The notes beneath the pieces were generated by a model, which worked only from the letters and a program-made list of their open reading frames with translations, made no database searches and had not been told where the DNA came from. Positions 5,585-41,274 of a DNA stretch of 45,408 bases are shown here, piece by piece (positions within the stretch are counted from its first letter, which is position 1; the number at the start of each line of letters is the position of its first letter). The stretch comes from Oscillospiraceae bacterium. GTDB taxonomy: Bacteria; Bacillota; Clostridia; Oscillospirales; Oscillospiraceae. The translations under genes were made by a program, and so were the position numbers. The DNA lies in assembly GCA_017408525.1 (NCBI GenBank), contig JAFQUN010000048.1:1-45408 (forward strand), written 5' to 3'.

Positions 5585-5691
5585 GTGTTTTCTCCTTTCC
5601 CGCGCATTGGCGGACAAAAATAATAAGCCATGACTTTCCATCATGACTCAATAGAGAAACGGCATAAACGCGCAGCTTCCATATTCATCAT

Positions 5692-5857
5692 CATGACAGC
5701 TCTCCACTTTCGTGACAGTCCGGCGGATATTCTCCGACGACCCAGGCAGCAAGCGGTCAAACACCCGCCTGTACCTTCGGCAGCCGTCCCTTTCGTCCCT
5801 CACCCGTGTTTGCGGGATATTAAAGGAACTACTGATGACGACCGCGCCTCTATCAAG
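5692..5857 (-). promoter_or_regulatory. Lysine riboswitch (L-box)
   Basis: Read on the minus strand, this segment has the conserved L-box landmarks in order: GATAGAGGCGCGG, then CATCAGTAG, then AAAGGGACGGCTGCCGAAGG, then GGGTCGTCGGA, then ACTGTCACGAAAGTGGAGAG. The outer helix P1 can form between CTTGATAG (5857-5850) and CTGTCATG (5699-5692). It lies in the 5' leader of the NhaC-type gene, downstream of a good promoter, so lysine should repress expression. The expression platform in 5585-5691 is not clear: there is no strong terminator, and a repeat of GTCATGATG suggests alternative pairing with the P1 3' strand. Confidence 0.88.
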
Positions 5858-5874
5858 ACTTATGTTATGTGCGG

Positions 5875-25011: not shown

Positions 25012-25260
25012 ATCAAAGGCAATATCGAGCAAAGGGCGTGTGATCTCGCCGTTTACATCATAGAAAACCGCACGACGGTGCGTGCTGCCGCGCGCAAATT
25101 CGGCGTGAGTAAGTCGACAGTACATAAGGACTTGCAGGATCGTTTGCCGCTTTTCAACCGCTCGCTTTATCTGCAGGTCAAAGAGGTCCTTGACGAAAAC
25201 AAGGCGCAGCGGCACATCCGCGGCGGTATCGCAACGCGGAAGAAGTATAAAGGGGCATAA
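25012..25260 (+). CDS. spoIIID: Sporulation transcriptional regulator SpoIIID, apparent AUC start
   Basis: An 82-residue DNA-binding protein of the mother-cell sporulation cascade. The helix-turn-helix lies at about residues 23-42 (TVRAAARKFGVSKSTVHKDL), followed by the conserved basic tail RHIRGGIATRKKYK. Homologues begin MKG.IE.RA; here the matching codon at 25012 is ATC, not ATG. AGGGAG lies about ten bases before it. Upstream in-frame TTG codons (24916, 24967) lack ribosome sites and fall before or inside the putative sigma-E promoter. I therefore place the start at the ATC, either a true rare initiation codon or a G-to-C base error. Monocistronic; repeats follow. Confidence 0.88.
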   Translation: MKGNIEQRACDLAVYIIENRTTVRAAARKFGVSKSTVHKDLQDRLPLFNRSLYLQVKEVLDENKAQRHIRGGIATRKKYKGA

Positions 25261-25274
25261 CCACATTTCATTTA

Positions 25275-25390
25275 CGCGTTGTTTGCCCAAAAAGGGGATG
25301 TTCCGCTCGTTCGCGAGCGGAGTTCCTTTTTGCTCCGTCAAAAAGGAACCAAAAACCGGCTTAAAAACCTACGGTTTTTAAGAATTTCCC
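25275..25390 (+). repeat. Dispersed three-hairpin element, family A, plus-oriented half-unit
   Basis: H1 CCGCTCG-TTCG-CGAGCGG (about 25303-25320), H2 GTTCCTTTTTG/CAAAAAGGAAC (25322-25332 and 25339-25349), spacer CAAAAACCGG, H3 CTTAAAAACC-TAC-GGTTTTTAAG (25360-25382), end AATTTCCC. The same plan occurs at 25690, 36150 and 41015. Confidence 0.8.
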
Positions 25391-25689
25391 TCCGCTATAC
25401 TACGACTGCCAAGATGAGCCACGGCGCCCGTTGACGAATTTGCCTCTGCATCCGTTTCCGCGCGTTACGCGCTGAATTTTTTCTTAATGATGGTCTTTTC
25501 GTTTCAATAACAGCGCCTACTATGCTTGAGTACCGATGGCACTTGCGCGACCGTGAGGTAAGACGGCGCAAAGTACGTATAACGAAGCGTTTTCCACACC
25601 GCACCCGTGAGCGGCAGCGGAGCAAGAAGGATCTGTTTCGCAAAGCGGCACCGCGCCGGGCGTGCGACGCACGCAGCCGAGGGCTGAAA
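25391..25689. other. Non-coding spacer between two opposed family A half-units
   Basis: About 300 bases with no credible gene. The open frame on the minus strand (25395-25643) is Arg-rich, lacks a ribosome site and matches no family I know. With the flanking inverted half-units (25275-25390 and 25690-25805) it forms a 530-base symmetrical block. Confidence 0.5.
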
Positions 25690-25805
25690 GGAAATTCTCA
25701 AAAACCATTGGTTTTTGAGCCGCATTTTTTGGCTTCTTTTTTGGGCGGAAGCAAAAAAGAAGCTCGCCGCCGGAGCGGCGAAATAAAACCCCCTTGCAGG
25801 CATTG
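25690..25805 (-). repeat. Dispersed three-hairpin element, family A, minus-oriented half-unit
   Basis: Read on the minus strand: head AATGCCTGCAAGGGGG, H1 TCGCCGC-TCCG-GCGGCGA (25781-25764), H2 GCTTCTTTTTTG/CAAAAAAGAAGC, spacer CAAAAAATGCGG, H3 CTCAAAAACC-AAT-GGTTTTTGAG, end AATTTCC. It is inverted relative to the copy at 25275. Confidence 0.8.
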
Positions 25806-25864
25806 CGTCAACGCAAAGGAAAAAAGAAGCACCTCACCGCCGGCGAAACAAATACAGTTTTCCC

Positions 25865-25893
25865 TTGTGCCAAACAGCGCGGCGTATTATAAT
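25865..25893 (+). promoter_or_regulatory. Promoter of the LCP gene
   Basis: TTGTGC (25865-25870), 17 bases, TATAAT (25888-25893). Confidence 0.7.
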
Positions 25894-25937
25894 AAAGGCG
25901 TAGAATCTATCGCTCAAAGGAAGTGTACCTTCTTCGC

Positions 25938-32714: not shown

Positions 32715-32840
32715 TACGCTCCGCTCTGTGCACTCACTTCGTTCGCACACTCGCTGCGCGAGAAGTATTTTCTCCGACGTGCGTGCCGCCGGAGAAAATG
32801 ATTAAATTTTTCTTTTGCCGCGAAGCGGCAAAATTCTGTG
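32715..32840. repeat. Dispersed palindromic repeat, family B, copy 2
   Basis: GCGAGAAGTA (32758-32767), hairpin TTTTCTCCG (32768-32776) / CGGAGAAAA (32790-32798) with a 13-base loop, ATGATTAAA, then a hairpin TTTTGCCGC-GAA-GCGGCAAAA (about 32814-32834). It is aligned with copy 1 at 196-300; stem bases differ in both arms while pairing is kept. It lies inside the glycine reductase operon between grdE and grdB. Confidence 0.72.
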
Positions 32841-32868: not shown

Positions 32869-34170
32869 ATGGGTTTCAAAGTGGTTCACTATATCAATCA
32901 ATTTTACGCCAACATCGGCGGCGAGGAGATGGCGCACATCGCACCGCAGCTGCGTGACGGCGCAGTCGGTCCGGGAACTGCCTTTGCGCAGGTATGGGAA
33001 GACGATGCGCAGATCGTGAAAACGGTCGTTTGCGGCGACTCCTATTTTGCCGAGCATGAAAAAGAGGCAAAAGAGCAGATCCTTGCGTGGGTCGACGAGA
33101 TCAAACCTGACTTTTTTATCGCCGGTCCCGCTTTCAACGCCGGACGCTACGGCTACGCCTGTGCGACGGTCTGCGCCGCCGTGCAGGAAACGGGCGTCGG
33201 CGTACTCACGGGCATGTACGCCGAAAACCCCGGCGCGGACTTGAAAGATAAAGTTTTGATGGTCGCAACCGGCAACTCCGCCGCCGGCATGCGGAAAGCC
33301 GCGCCCGTGATGGCACGGCTTGCGCTGAAAATCATGCGCGGGGAAAAACTCGGTGCGTCGGCGGAGGAAGGGTATCTTCCAAACGGCGTGCGCCGTAATT
33401 TCTTCGAATCGAAAAACGGCGCGGAGCGCGCGGTCGATATGCTCCTTGCCAAGCTTGCGGGAAAGCCCTTTACGACCGAATACCCCATGCCGAGCTTTGA
33501 CCGCGTCGCGCCGGCAAAGCCGCTTTCCGACCTTGCGGGTGCGACCATTGCTCTTTGCACCTCCGGCGGCATCGTCCCCAAGGGCAACCCCGACCGCATC
33601 GAGTCGTCCTCCGCCTCGCACTATGGAGAGTATTCCATCGCGGGGGCAGACGATCTGACCGATGCGACGTATGAAACGGCGCACGGCGGCTACGACCCTG
33701 TCTATGCAAACGCCGACGCCGATCGTGTGCTGCCGGTCGACGTGCTGCGCGAGCTTGAGCGCGAGGGGAAGATCGGCAAGCTCCACGAATACTACTATTC
33801 GACTGTCGGCAACGGAACGTCGGTCGCAAATGCGAGGCGCTTTGCCGCCGAGTACGCGCAAAAGCTCCTCTCGGCAGGAGTCGATGCCGTCATCATGACC
33901 AGCACCTGAGGCACCTGCACGCGTTGCGGTGCAACGATGGTAAAGGAAATTGAGCGTACAGGTATCCCTGTCGTTCATATGTGTACGGTCACCCCCATTT
34001 CCATGACGGTCGGCGCGAACCGCATCGTTCCGACGATCGCCATTCCCCACCCGCTCGGGAACCCTGCGCTCTCGGCGCAGGAGGAAAAAGCGCTTCGCCG
34101 CAAGCTGGTTTTGCGCGCGCTCGACGCACTTTGTACGGAGGTCTCCGAGCAGACGGTGTTTGAGGTCTGA
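32869..34170 (+). CDS. grdB: Glycine reductase protein B gamma subunit, selenoprotein (GrdB)
   Basis: A 433-residue selenoprotein. The reading frame is continuous through an in-frame TGA at 33907-33909 (residue 347), in the context MTST-Sec-GTCTRCGATMVKEIER, exactly the active-site context of GrdB. The downstream part (VHMCTVTPISMTVGANRIVP) is conserved GrdB sequence, so TGA is decoded as selenocysteine, not a stop. Protein B binds glycine via the GrdE pyruvoyl group and passes the carboxymethyl group to the Sec of GrdA. ATG 32869 follows TTTGGAGG. Sarcosine or betaine paralogues (GrdF, GrdH) share this motif, so glycine specificity rests on operon content. Confidence 0.95.
33907..33932 (+). 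promoter_or_regulatory. grdB: Selenocysteine UGA and candidate SECIS hairpin of grdB
   Basis: Directly after UGA comes GCACC, a bulged T, GCA, loop CGCGT, TGC, GGTGC (33911-33932). The bulged U below a GCA/UGC stem and a GU in the loop mirror the SelB-binding part of the E. coli fdhF SECIS. The hairpin is closer to the UGA than in fdhF, so the exact fold is uncertain. Confidence 0.5.
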
Positions 34171-36093: not shown

Positions 36094-36140
36094 AGGAGGA
36101 CTGCTGCAAACATATTTTGCGGCAGTCCTCCTTTTTTCTT
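36094..36140 (+). terminator. Strong intrinsic terminator inside the glycine reductase cluster
   Basis: GGAGGACTGCTGCAAA (36095-36110), loop CATAT, TTTGCGGCAGTCCTCC (36116-36131), one U-G pair, then TTTTTT. It lies between grdA and grdCD, so the last gene is expected to be expressed less or from its own promoter. Confidence 0.92.
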
Positions 36141-36149
36141 CTTGTTTAG

Positions 36150-36338
36150 TGATTGCCGGGGGAATTTTTCGCCGCTCCGGCGGCGAGTTACTTTTTATCA
36201 CTGAATAAAAAAGTAACCAAAAAAGTCAGCTTAGAAACCGTAGGTTTCTAAATCACTTTTTGGGTACTTTTGCGTGACGGCAAAAGTACCTCGCGCTCGG
36301 AAGCGCGAAACAAAGCTCCTTTAGCGAGCACTGCGATA
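36150..36338. repeat. Family A element, symmetrical composite of two half-units sharing H3
   Basis: Left half (plus): H1 TCGCCGC-TCCG-GCGGCGA (36169-36186), H2 GTTACTTTTT/AAAAAGTAAC (36187-36196, 36208-36217), spacer CAAAAAAGTCAG, central H3 TTAGAAACC-GTA-GGTTTCTAA (36231-36251). Right half (minus): CACTTTTTGG, H2 GGTACTTTTG/CAAAAGTACC (36263-36272, 36281-36290), H1 TCGCGCT-CGGA-AGCGCGA (36291-36308), tail AGCTCCTTTAGCGAGCACTGC. It fills the gap before grdCD. Confidence 0.82.
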
Positions 36339-40973: not shown

Positions 40974-41014
40974 ACATGTACCTTCTTTTTTGTTTCGGTT
41001 TCTTCTTTGTGAAG

Positions 41015-41274
41015 CTCCCTGTCAGGGGGGAGTGTTTCGCCGCTCCGGCGGCGAGCTTCTTTTTTGTCGCTGAACAAAAAAGAAGCCAAAAAAGTCAGTT
41101 TAGAAACCTGCGGTTTCTAAAAACTTCCCTTGCGCTATCAAGCGGTCTGAAGGGAAATTCTTAAAAACCGTAGGTTTTTAAGCCGACTTTTTGGTTCCTT
41201 TTTCCTCGGCGGGAAAAAGGAACTCCGCGTCGGAACGCGGAATAGCTCCCTTTGGCAGGCATTGTGACCGGAGA
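41015..41274. repeat. Pair of opposed family A half-units
   Basis: Plus half (41015-41130): H1 TCGCCGC-TCCG-GCGGCGA (41037-41054), H2 GCTTCTTTTTTG/CAAAAAAGAAGC (41055-41066, 41075-41086), spacer CAAAAAAGTCAG, H3 TTTAGAAACC-TGC-GGTTTCTAAA (41099-41121). Minus half (41151-41274), read in reverse: head AATGCCTGCCAAAGGGAGCT, H1 TCCGCGT-TCCG-ACGCGGA, H2 GTTCCTTTTTCC/GGAAAAAGGAAC, spacer CAAAAAGTCGG, H3 CTTAAAAACC-TAC-GGTTTTTAAG, end AATTTCCC. Confidence 0.82.

Follow-up and report, generated by a model that had tools for sequence, protein, structure and literature searches.

Paired ends with a predicted pseudoknot in a dispersed non-coding repeat of an Oscillospiraceae genome

The window analyzed here, a stretch of 45,408 nucleotides from an Oscillospiraceae bacterium, contains three copies of one dispersed non-coding repeat that measures about 560 bp in its full form and whose ends face inward. 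Each end is predicted to fold into a terminal unit of approximately 115 nt, in which the loop of the central hairpin pairs with the spacer behind it. The most probable explanation for this repeat is a non-autonomous, non-coding mobile element that is MITE-like in size and behavior and whose ends would be recognized as a folded single strand. An earlier sequence-only reading of the window had described structured intergenic half-units. Its observation was confirmed and extended, and its interpretation was partly supported: the behavior is MITE-like, and the test for a RAYT origin failed.

Copies in the window and in the genome

All six half-units described previously were recovered with E-values of 1e-20 to 1e-31 (nhmmer/CM), by a model whose training copies include these six (Table 1). 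In unit orientation, which runs from the outer side of the element toward its interior, the order of the parts is head, H1, H2, spacer, H3 and tail. The proposed common plan of H1, H2, spacer and H3 was found in the copies, but the AATGCCTGC head and the AATTTCC end, which had been assigned to all of them, are absent from some. The half-units do exist, but they are not free-standing; they form the two termini of a single element, face each other and enclose an interior that is homologous between copies. In the interior of the full-length element W1, BLAST identified a left part of about 160 bp that is homologous to the standard inverted arm, while the right part represents a second arm type. 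The two half-units of W2 lack the tail and share their H3, and this element lies directly behind an intrinsic terminator that ends at approximately position 36130.

Table 1. Elements of the repeat in the window and the parts of their terminal units
Feature	Position	Strand	Details
Element W1, full-length	25273-25809	.	Two convergent terminal units and an interior of ~300 bp; nhmmer/CM hits; interior homologous to those of other copies
W1 left terminal unit	25273-25389	+	H1 25303-25320 (loop TTCG); tail AATTTCC
W1 left S1 hairpin	25322-25349	+	Loop ctccgt
W1 left L3, S2 and H3	25350-25382	+	A-rich L3 25350-25356; S2 strand 25357-25360; H3 25360-25382
W1 interior	25390-25689	.	Non-coding; BLAST among interiors
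W1 right terminal unit	25690-25809	-	H1 25765-25780 (loop TCCG); S1 25732-25763; H3 25697-25719
W1 right S2	25720-25723	-	CCGC (loop):GCGG
Element W2, deletion derivative	36143-36337	.	One central H3 (36231-36252) common to both units; interior lost
W2 left unit	36143-36259	+	H1 36170-36185 (TCCG); S1 36187-36217; predicted pseudoknot CTGA:TCAG (36226-36229)
W2 right unit	36229-36337	-	H1 36292-36307 (TCCG); S1 36263-36290; predicted pseudoknot TCAC:GTGA (36253-36256)
Element W3, deletion derivative	41009-41268	.	Interior 24 bp; located between divergent genes
W3 left unit	41009-41128	+	H1 41038-41053 (TCCG); S1 41055-41086; predicted pseudoknot CTGA:TCAG (41095-41098); H3 41099-41121
W3 right unit	41153-41268	-	H1 41225-41240; S1 41194-41223; predicted pseudoknot GCCGA:TCGGC (41182-41186); H3 41160-41182

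A covariance model was built from 46 copies and yielded 97 matches in the metagenome-assembled genome (MAG) to which the window belongs (1.64 Mb, 147 contigs, 78% complete). Matches above 59 bits were regarded as strong half-units. Seventy of these 85 form 35 convergent pairs, and divergent neighboring units were not found among them. The convergent pairs span 185 to 721 bp with a median of 561 bp, the majority measuring 537-565 bp. Five same-strand doublets of units were also present, four of which are separated by approximately 11 nt (10 unmatched bases) from the tail to the next head (contigs C64, 12714-12956; C103, 4761-5002; C117, 21840-22063; C72, 1949-2187). These doublets look as though one copy had inserted directly behind the H3 of another. 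The interiors, about 325 bp between the ends, are homologous between copies (up to E 1e-94 in BLAST), which bears out the suggested shared ancestry, and are largely inverted-symmetric; in this lineage they consist of two inverted arms of ~160 bp. Individual copies are mosaics of common module types. A coding interior was rejected, as no ORF is shared among 21 full copies.

Several further structured elements were observed in the window. A second hairpin family, characterized by the long stem ATTTTTGCCG/CGGCAAAAAT, is represented by two copies (209-305 and 32743-32809) that are 78% alike across a stretch of 67 nt. Its first copy gave a weak minus-strand match to the unit model (227-322, E 0.001), and no pseudoknot was apparent by eye. 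A SECIS_4 selenocysteine element (33910-33947) and a lysine riboswitch (5689-5860) both scored well over their Rfam cut-offs.

The fold of the terminal unit

Across the 46 copies, 95.3% of the positions paired in the H1/H2/H3 structure were occupied by standard pairs, compared to 82.5% after shuffling, and 175 cells were changed on both sides, compared to 57. The covariation score was 0.351 against 0.128 for shuffled copies; none of 500 shuffles scored as high, and slid versions of the structure did not exceed 0.104. Covariation of the stems, including the joint change of both H2 arms, thus held as proposed and was not lost with more copies, persisting in the set of 46 and in other genera.

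The spacer had been listed in the sequence-only reading as CAAAAA(A)GTCGG-like, and it is indeed present, but its role had been missed: it provides the second strand (S2) of a predicted H-type pseudoknot by pairing with the H2 loop. The H2 stem (S1, 9-13 bp) carries a loop of 4-10 nt, 4-6 nt of which pair with nucleotides downstream of S1. The A-rich L3 of about 4-9 nt (CAAAAAAG or a variant of it) crosses S1, which is likewise a feature of H-type pseudoknots, and H3 begins adjoining S2. The observed loop:spacer pairings include CTGA:TCAG, CCGC:GCGG, TCAC:GTGA, GCCG:CGGC, GCCGA:TCGGC, CCGG:CCGG and TCAG:CTGA. At least four Watson-Crick pairs were formed in 19 of the 22 distinct loop/spacer combinations of this lineage, while permuted spacers reached a mean of 6.5 and a maximum of 15 (0/20,000 reached 19); only three pairs are possible in the left unit of W1, in that copy. 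Other genomes carry different letters and still formed at least four pairs in 40 of 50 distinct combinations (permutations: mean 10.3, maximum 19, 0/10,000 reaching 40). An H-type pseudoknot is defined by a hairpin loop that pairs with a downstream single strand and covaries with it, and, judged by sequence comparison, the unit is predicted to form one.

It had further been claimed that every H1 closes a UNCG loop, and selection on RNA structure in one orientation had been suggested as one of two readings. A TNCG loop was detected in 43 of 46 copies (33 TCCG, 8 TGCG and 2 TTCG), or in 44 if one copy with a U.G closing pair is included. This part of the claim is valid for the present lineage but not for all relatives, as the H1 loops differ in the genus represented by genome G042 and the UNCG motif is not kept there. 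The proposed single orientation is not supported, in view of this loss, the convergent arrangement of the ends and the lack of a wobble strand bias. Because the ends are convergent, transcription across the element always yields one of them in sense and the other in antisense. The S1 arms are 99.3% Watson-Crick paired (1004 of 1011 pairs) with balanced wobbles (3 G.T and 4 A.C among the 1,011), and H1 and H3 likewise display no strand preference. Strand-specific RNA selection, searched for as a wobble asymmetry, therefore gave no signal. The UNCG loops and the A-rich L3 favor RNA; the ends are probably recognized as a folded single strand, which may be RNA or ssDNA.

Other genomes, insertion sites and gene context

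The structural plan was recovered by the model in 9 of 60 genomes of relatives, the own genome included. Carriers within the family are G029 (91 matches at E up to 0.01), G032, G011 and G010, and other families of the order contribute further ones, among them G042 with 50 matches. Among 398 genomes of the phylum, 11 were matched by a pattern consisting of S1 and the start of L3, most of them more than once, while the reversed-pattern control produced three single hits; although this pattern did not require S2 pairing, loop and spacer matched again in many of the genomes. A similar motif in Proteobacteria served as a lead and was then borne out by the search. Copies were detected in Burkholderia, Caballeronia, Pasteurella multocida and Aeromonas caviae as well as in Ilyobacter polytropus (Fusobacteriota). 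Loop and spacer pair in four of these five genomes (GTGGCC:GGCCAC, GCTGC:GCAGC, TCGCC:GGCGA and TGCC:GGCA), the Burkholderia copy being the sole one in which they do not, and a second, convergent unit follows the Pasteurella copy ~350 bp further on. No match was obtained in E. coli. The fold is thus patchy yet spans at least three phyla. A narrow pattern based on H3 matched only one named genome because the letters vary, and structure-based searches are needed to find the fold. Its recurrence with different letters and in many copies across other families and phyla makes it look like an overlooked, widespread mobile element.

The G042 genus (five species) allowed a comparison of insertion sites, as most of its genomes carry dozens of copies, whose entire length of 545 bp is 79-93% alike. 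Of approximately ten orthologous sites, about six were polymorphic among the species (L102, L105, L107, L113, L118 and L119), as read from the spacing of the left and right flanks and from the sequence, which showed G042 to be filled where G061 and G062 of the same genus are empty. The previously suggested replicating nature of the element is supported by this presence and absence. The cleanest polymorphic sites are L107 and L113, with differences of 718 bp and 898 bp, respectively; no target-site duplication was evident at these two sites, where the outer boundaries are fuzzy. The inserted blocks measure ~700-900 bp and contain additional hairpins on their outer sides, which places the true end outside the modeled unit. 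Part of the presence/absence among MAGs could reflect deletion or assembly loss, although at the empty sites both flanks lie together on one contig. Taken together, the repeat is dispersed, multicopy and non-coding, has inverted ends and is polymorphic between close genomes, as expected for a MITE. Many contigs of the G042-genus MAGs end in the element, which may thus be a cause of contig breaks in draft assemblies.

Two side observations concern these loci. GC-rich hairpin modules outside the units (GCGGGGAAGCCCCGC, GTGAGGCAGAGCCTCAC and others) are shuffled between copies of the G042 genus (e.g., L102, L107 and L037). At L123 (G061, contig C76), the empty site opposite the copy on G042 contig C9, a small hairpin ATCTGTGGGC-CTC-GCCCACGGAT is located just past the stop codon and could be a target or a remnant.

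With respect to gene context, crude ORF picking placed 16 of 43 elements between tandem, 15 between convergent and 12 between divergent genes. In the own genome, half of the ends inspected (19/38; control 1.5/38) follow a terminator-like hairpin at a distance of 7-32 nt; in about five cases, this hairpin is a solo H1-like module. No end showed such an association in the G042 genus (0/40), and it was weak in G029 (4/29), so that it appears to be a habit of the lineage or to result from tolerance. Targeting of terminators as a general rule was rejected.

Explanations and known families

For the favored mobile element, a trans-acting enzyme would recognize the folded ends as a single strand, either a transcript or ssDNA, and would then copy or move the element. 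The pairing in S2 would be kept because the fold is recognized and the letters are not, and new copies would survive where they are harmless, which in the own genome would often be directly behind an intrinsic terminator. Two families were searched as potential mobilizers. Y1_Tnp (RAYT) was absent from seven of eight carrier genomes and present only in G011, and RVT_1 (reverse transcriptase) was absent from all eight, several of these genomes being at least 95% complete. Paired ends enclosing a gene-bearing interior of 1-3 kb were not found among the matches listed. A phage or plasmid vehicle was rejected: viral contigs and phages had no match, and matches in the plasmid collection were mostly to very large replicons. 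It is possible, if speculative, that the repeat belongs to a pan-bacterial class of selfish elements, spanning its own phylum, Proteobacteria and Fusobacteriota and defined by a terminal hairpin-pseudoknot-hairpin fold, whose enzyme would be neither RAYT nor a reverse transcriptase and would represent a new route of mobilization.

Alternatively, the copies might be kept for their use to the host as an RNA device that caps or insulates 3' ends on both sides, as a protection from 3'-5' exonucleases and from read-through. Read-through RNA from either neighboring gene would end in a sense H1-pseudoknot-H3, and the frequent UNCG loops, the A-rich L3 and the terminator-like hairpins behind which half of the own-genome ends lie would suit this role. 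However, the 12 elements between divergent genes have no 3' end facing them, the terminator association disappears or weakens in the other genera and the sites differ between close species, which makes such a device unlikely. Covariation could also arise by mutation if templated (quasi-palindrome) correction or gene conversion kept the arms identical without selection on the fold. Near-perfect S1 stems with almost no wobble and the mosaic nature of the copies are in line with this process, and stem covariation alone is therefore no proof of selection. The S2 pairing, however, is not easily kept by templated correction, as it is too short and its strands are too far apart. Template switching should not create a pairing of 4-6 nt that joins the loop to a stretch outside the hairpin, and S2 recurs with new letters in distant lineages; a purely mutational origin is thus improbable.

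REPINs consist of two inverted, structured units that occur in many copies and are mobilized in trans by RAYT. Inverted REP-like hairpins moved by such a Y1 (IS200-like) transposase would explain the dispersed, non-coding pairs of hairpin units, but this relationship is very unlikely considering the absence of Y1_Tnp from seven of eight carrier genomes and a pseudoknotted unit of ~115 nt instead of a hairpin of ~20 nt. Group IIC introns insert behind terminators, and a reverse transcriptase of this type copying the folded RNA would be in agreement with the RNA-like pseudoknot and with own-genome copies behind terminators and behind the hairpins of other copies; the lack of RVT_1 in all eight genomes searched renders it extremely unlikely. 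Unrelated, look-alike convergent intrinsic terminators would share the GC hairpin followed by a T-rich stretch, but homologous interiors, the tight ~561-bp spacing, the covarying pseudoknot and the varied gene contexts virtually rule them out; the concern that the copies are plain convergent terminators of separate ancestry is thereby removed.

At gathering and permissive thresholds, no Rfam family covered the unit in the window, in relatives or in the outside copies, in agreement with the earlier statement that it has no named family. Literature searches by sequence string and by topic found nothing among openly licensed papers; the element may have been named in a subscription journal. Hence, no Rfam model and no paper found matches this repeat, which reaches tens of copies per genome and shows one predicted pseudoknot in at least three phyla. 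If mobile, it needs an enzyme hitherto unlinked to it, and it would offer hundreds of natural pseudoknot variants for testing whether the machinery of mobility recognizes shape rather than sequence.

Among small bacterial repeats, REPINs differ from the element in that its units are large and pseudoknotted, in addition to the absence of RAYT from seven of eight carrier genomes. Bp1_684 (RF02421), a Burkholderia sRNA, matches the Burkholderia copy over its outer flank and H1 side (118.8 bits) and flanks the Caballeronia copy on both sides in convergent orientation, slightly below the cut-off. In contrast to the element, this annotation is specific to Burkholderia, is restricted to a single flank, leaves out the pseudoknot and has no match in the window. 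Dispersed intergenic repeats such as ERIC, RU-1/RU-2/RU-3, Correia/NEMIS and BOX are, like the element, non-coding, inverted-symmetric, strongly structured and without an enzyme of their own (PMC2229807, PMC2759123). They measure ~100-170 bp compared to about 560 bp; the element is further set apart by its terminal predicted H-type pseudoknot and by a fold that stays constant while the sequence changes across phyla, and no target-site duplication was seen at its fuzzy outer boundary.

TwoAYGGAY RNA (RF01731) is a dispersed, multicopy structured RNA from the human gut, gamma-Proteobacteria and Clostridiales (PMC2864571). Matches above its cut-off were absent from the window and the relatives, and one sub-threshold match lies in the interior of the Aeromonas copy (41.5 bits, cut-off 43). 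As RF01731 loci from 30 genomes carry no unit, the element is not TwoAYGGAY. TwoAYGGAY, classified as cis-regulatory in Rfam, was itself observed as a dispersed multicopy repeat in 37 of 249 genomes of the phylum (including loci L172-L201), with up to 10 of 10 candidates scored per genome. The STAXI motif (RF01728), listed for Enterobacteriales, had no match at the gathering threshold in the window and none at E<=10 in 25200-25900. Its repeated pseudoknots with UUCG loops, for which both RNA and single-stranded DNA have been discussed, are arranged in tandem, two or three at a time, close to genes for DNA handling (PMC2864571), and by its structure STAXI may be regarded as the closest analog of the element.
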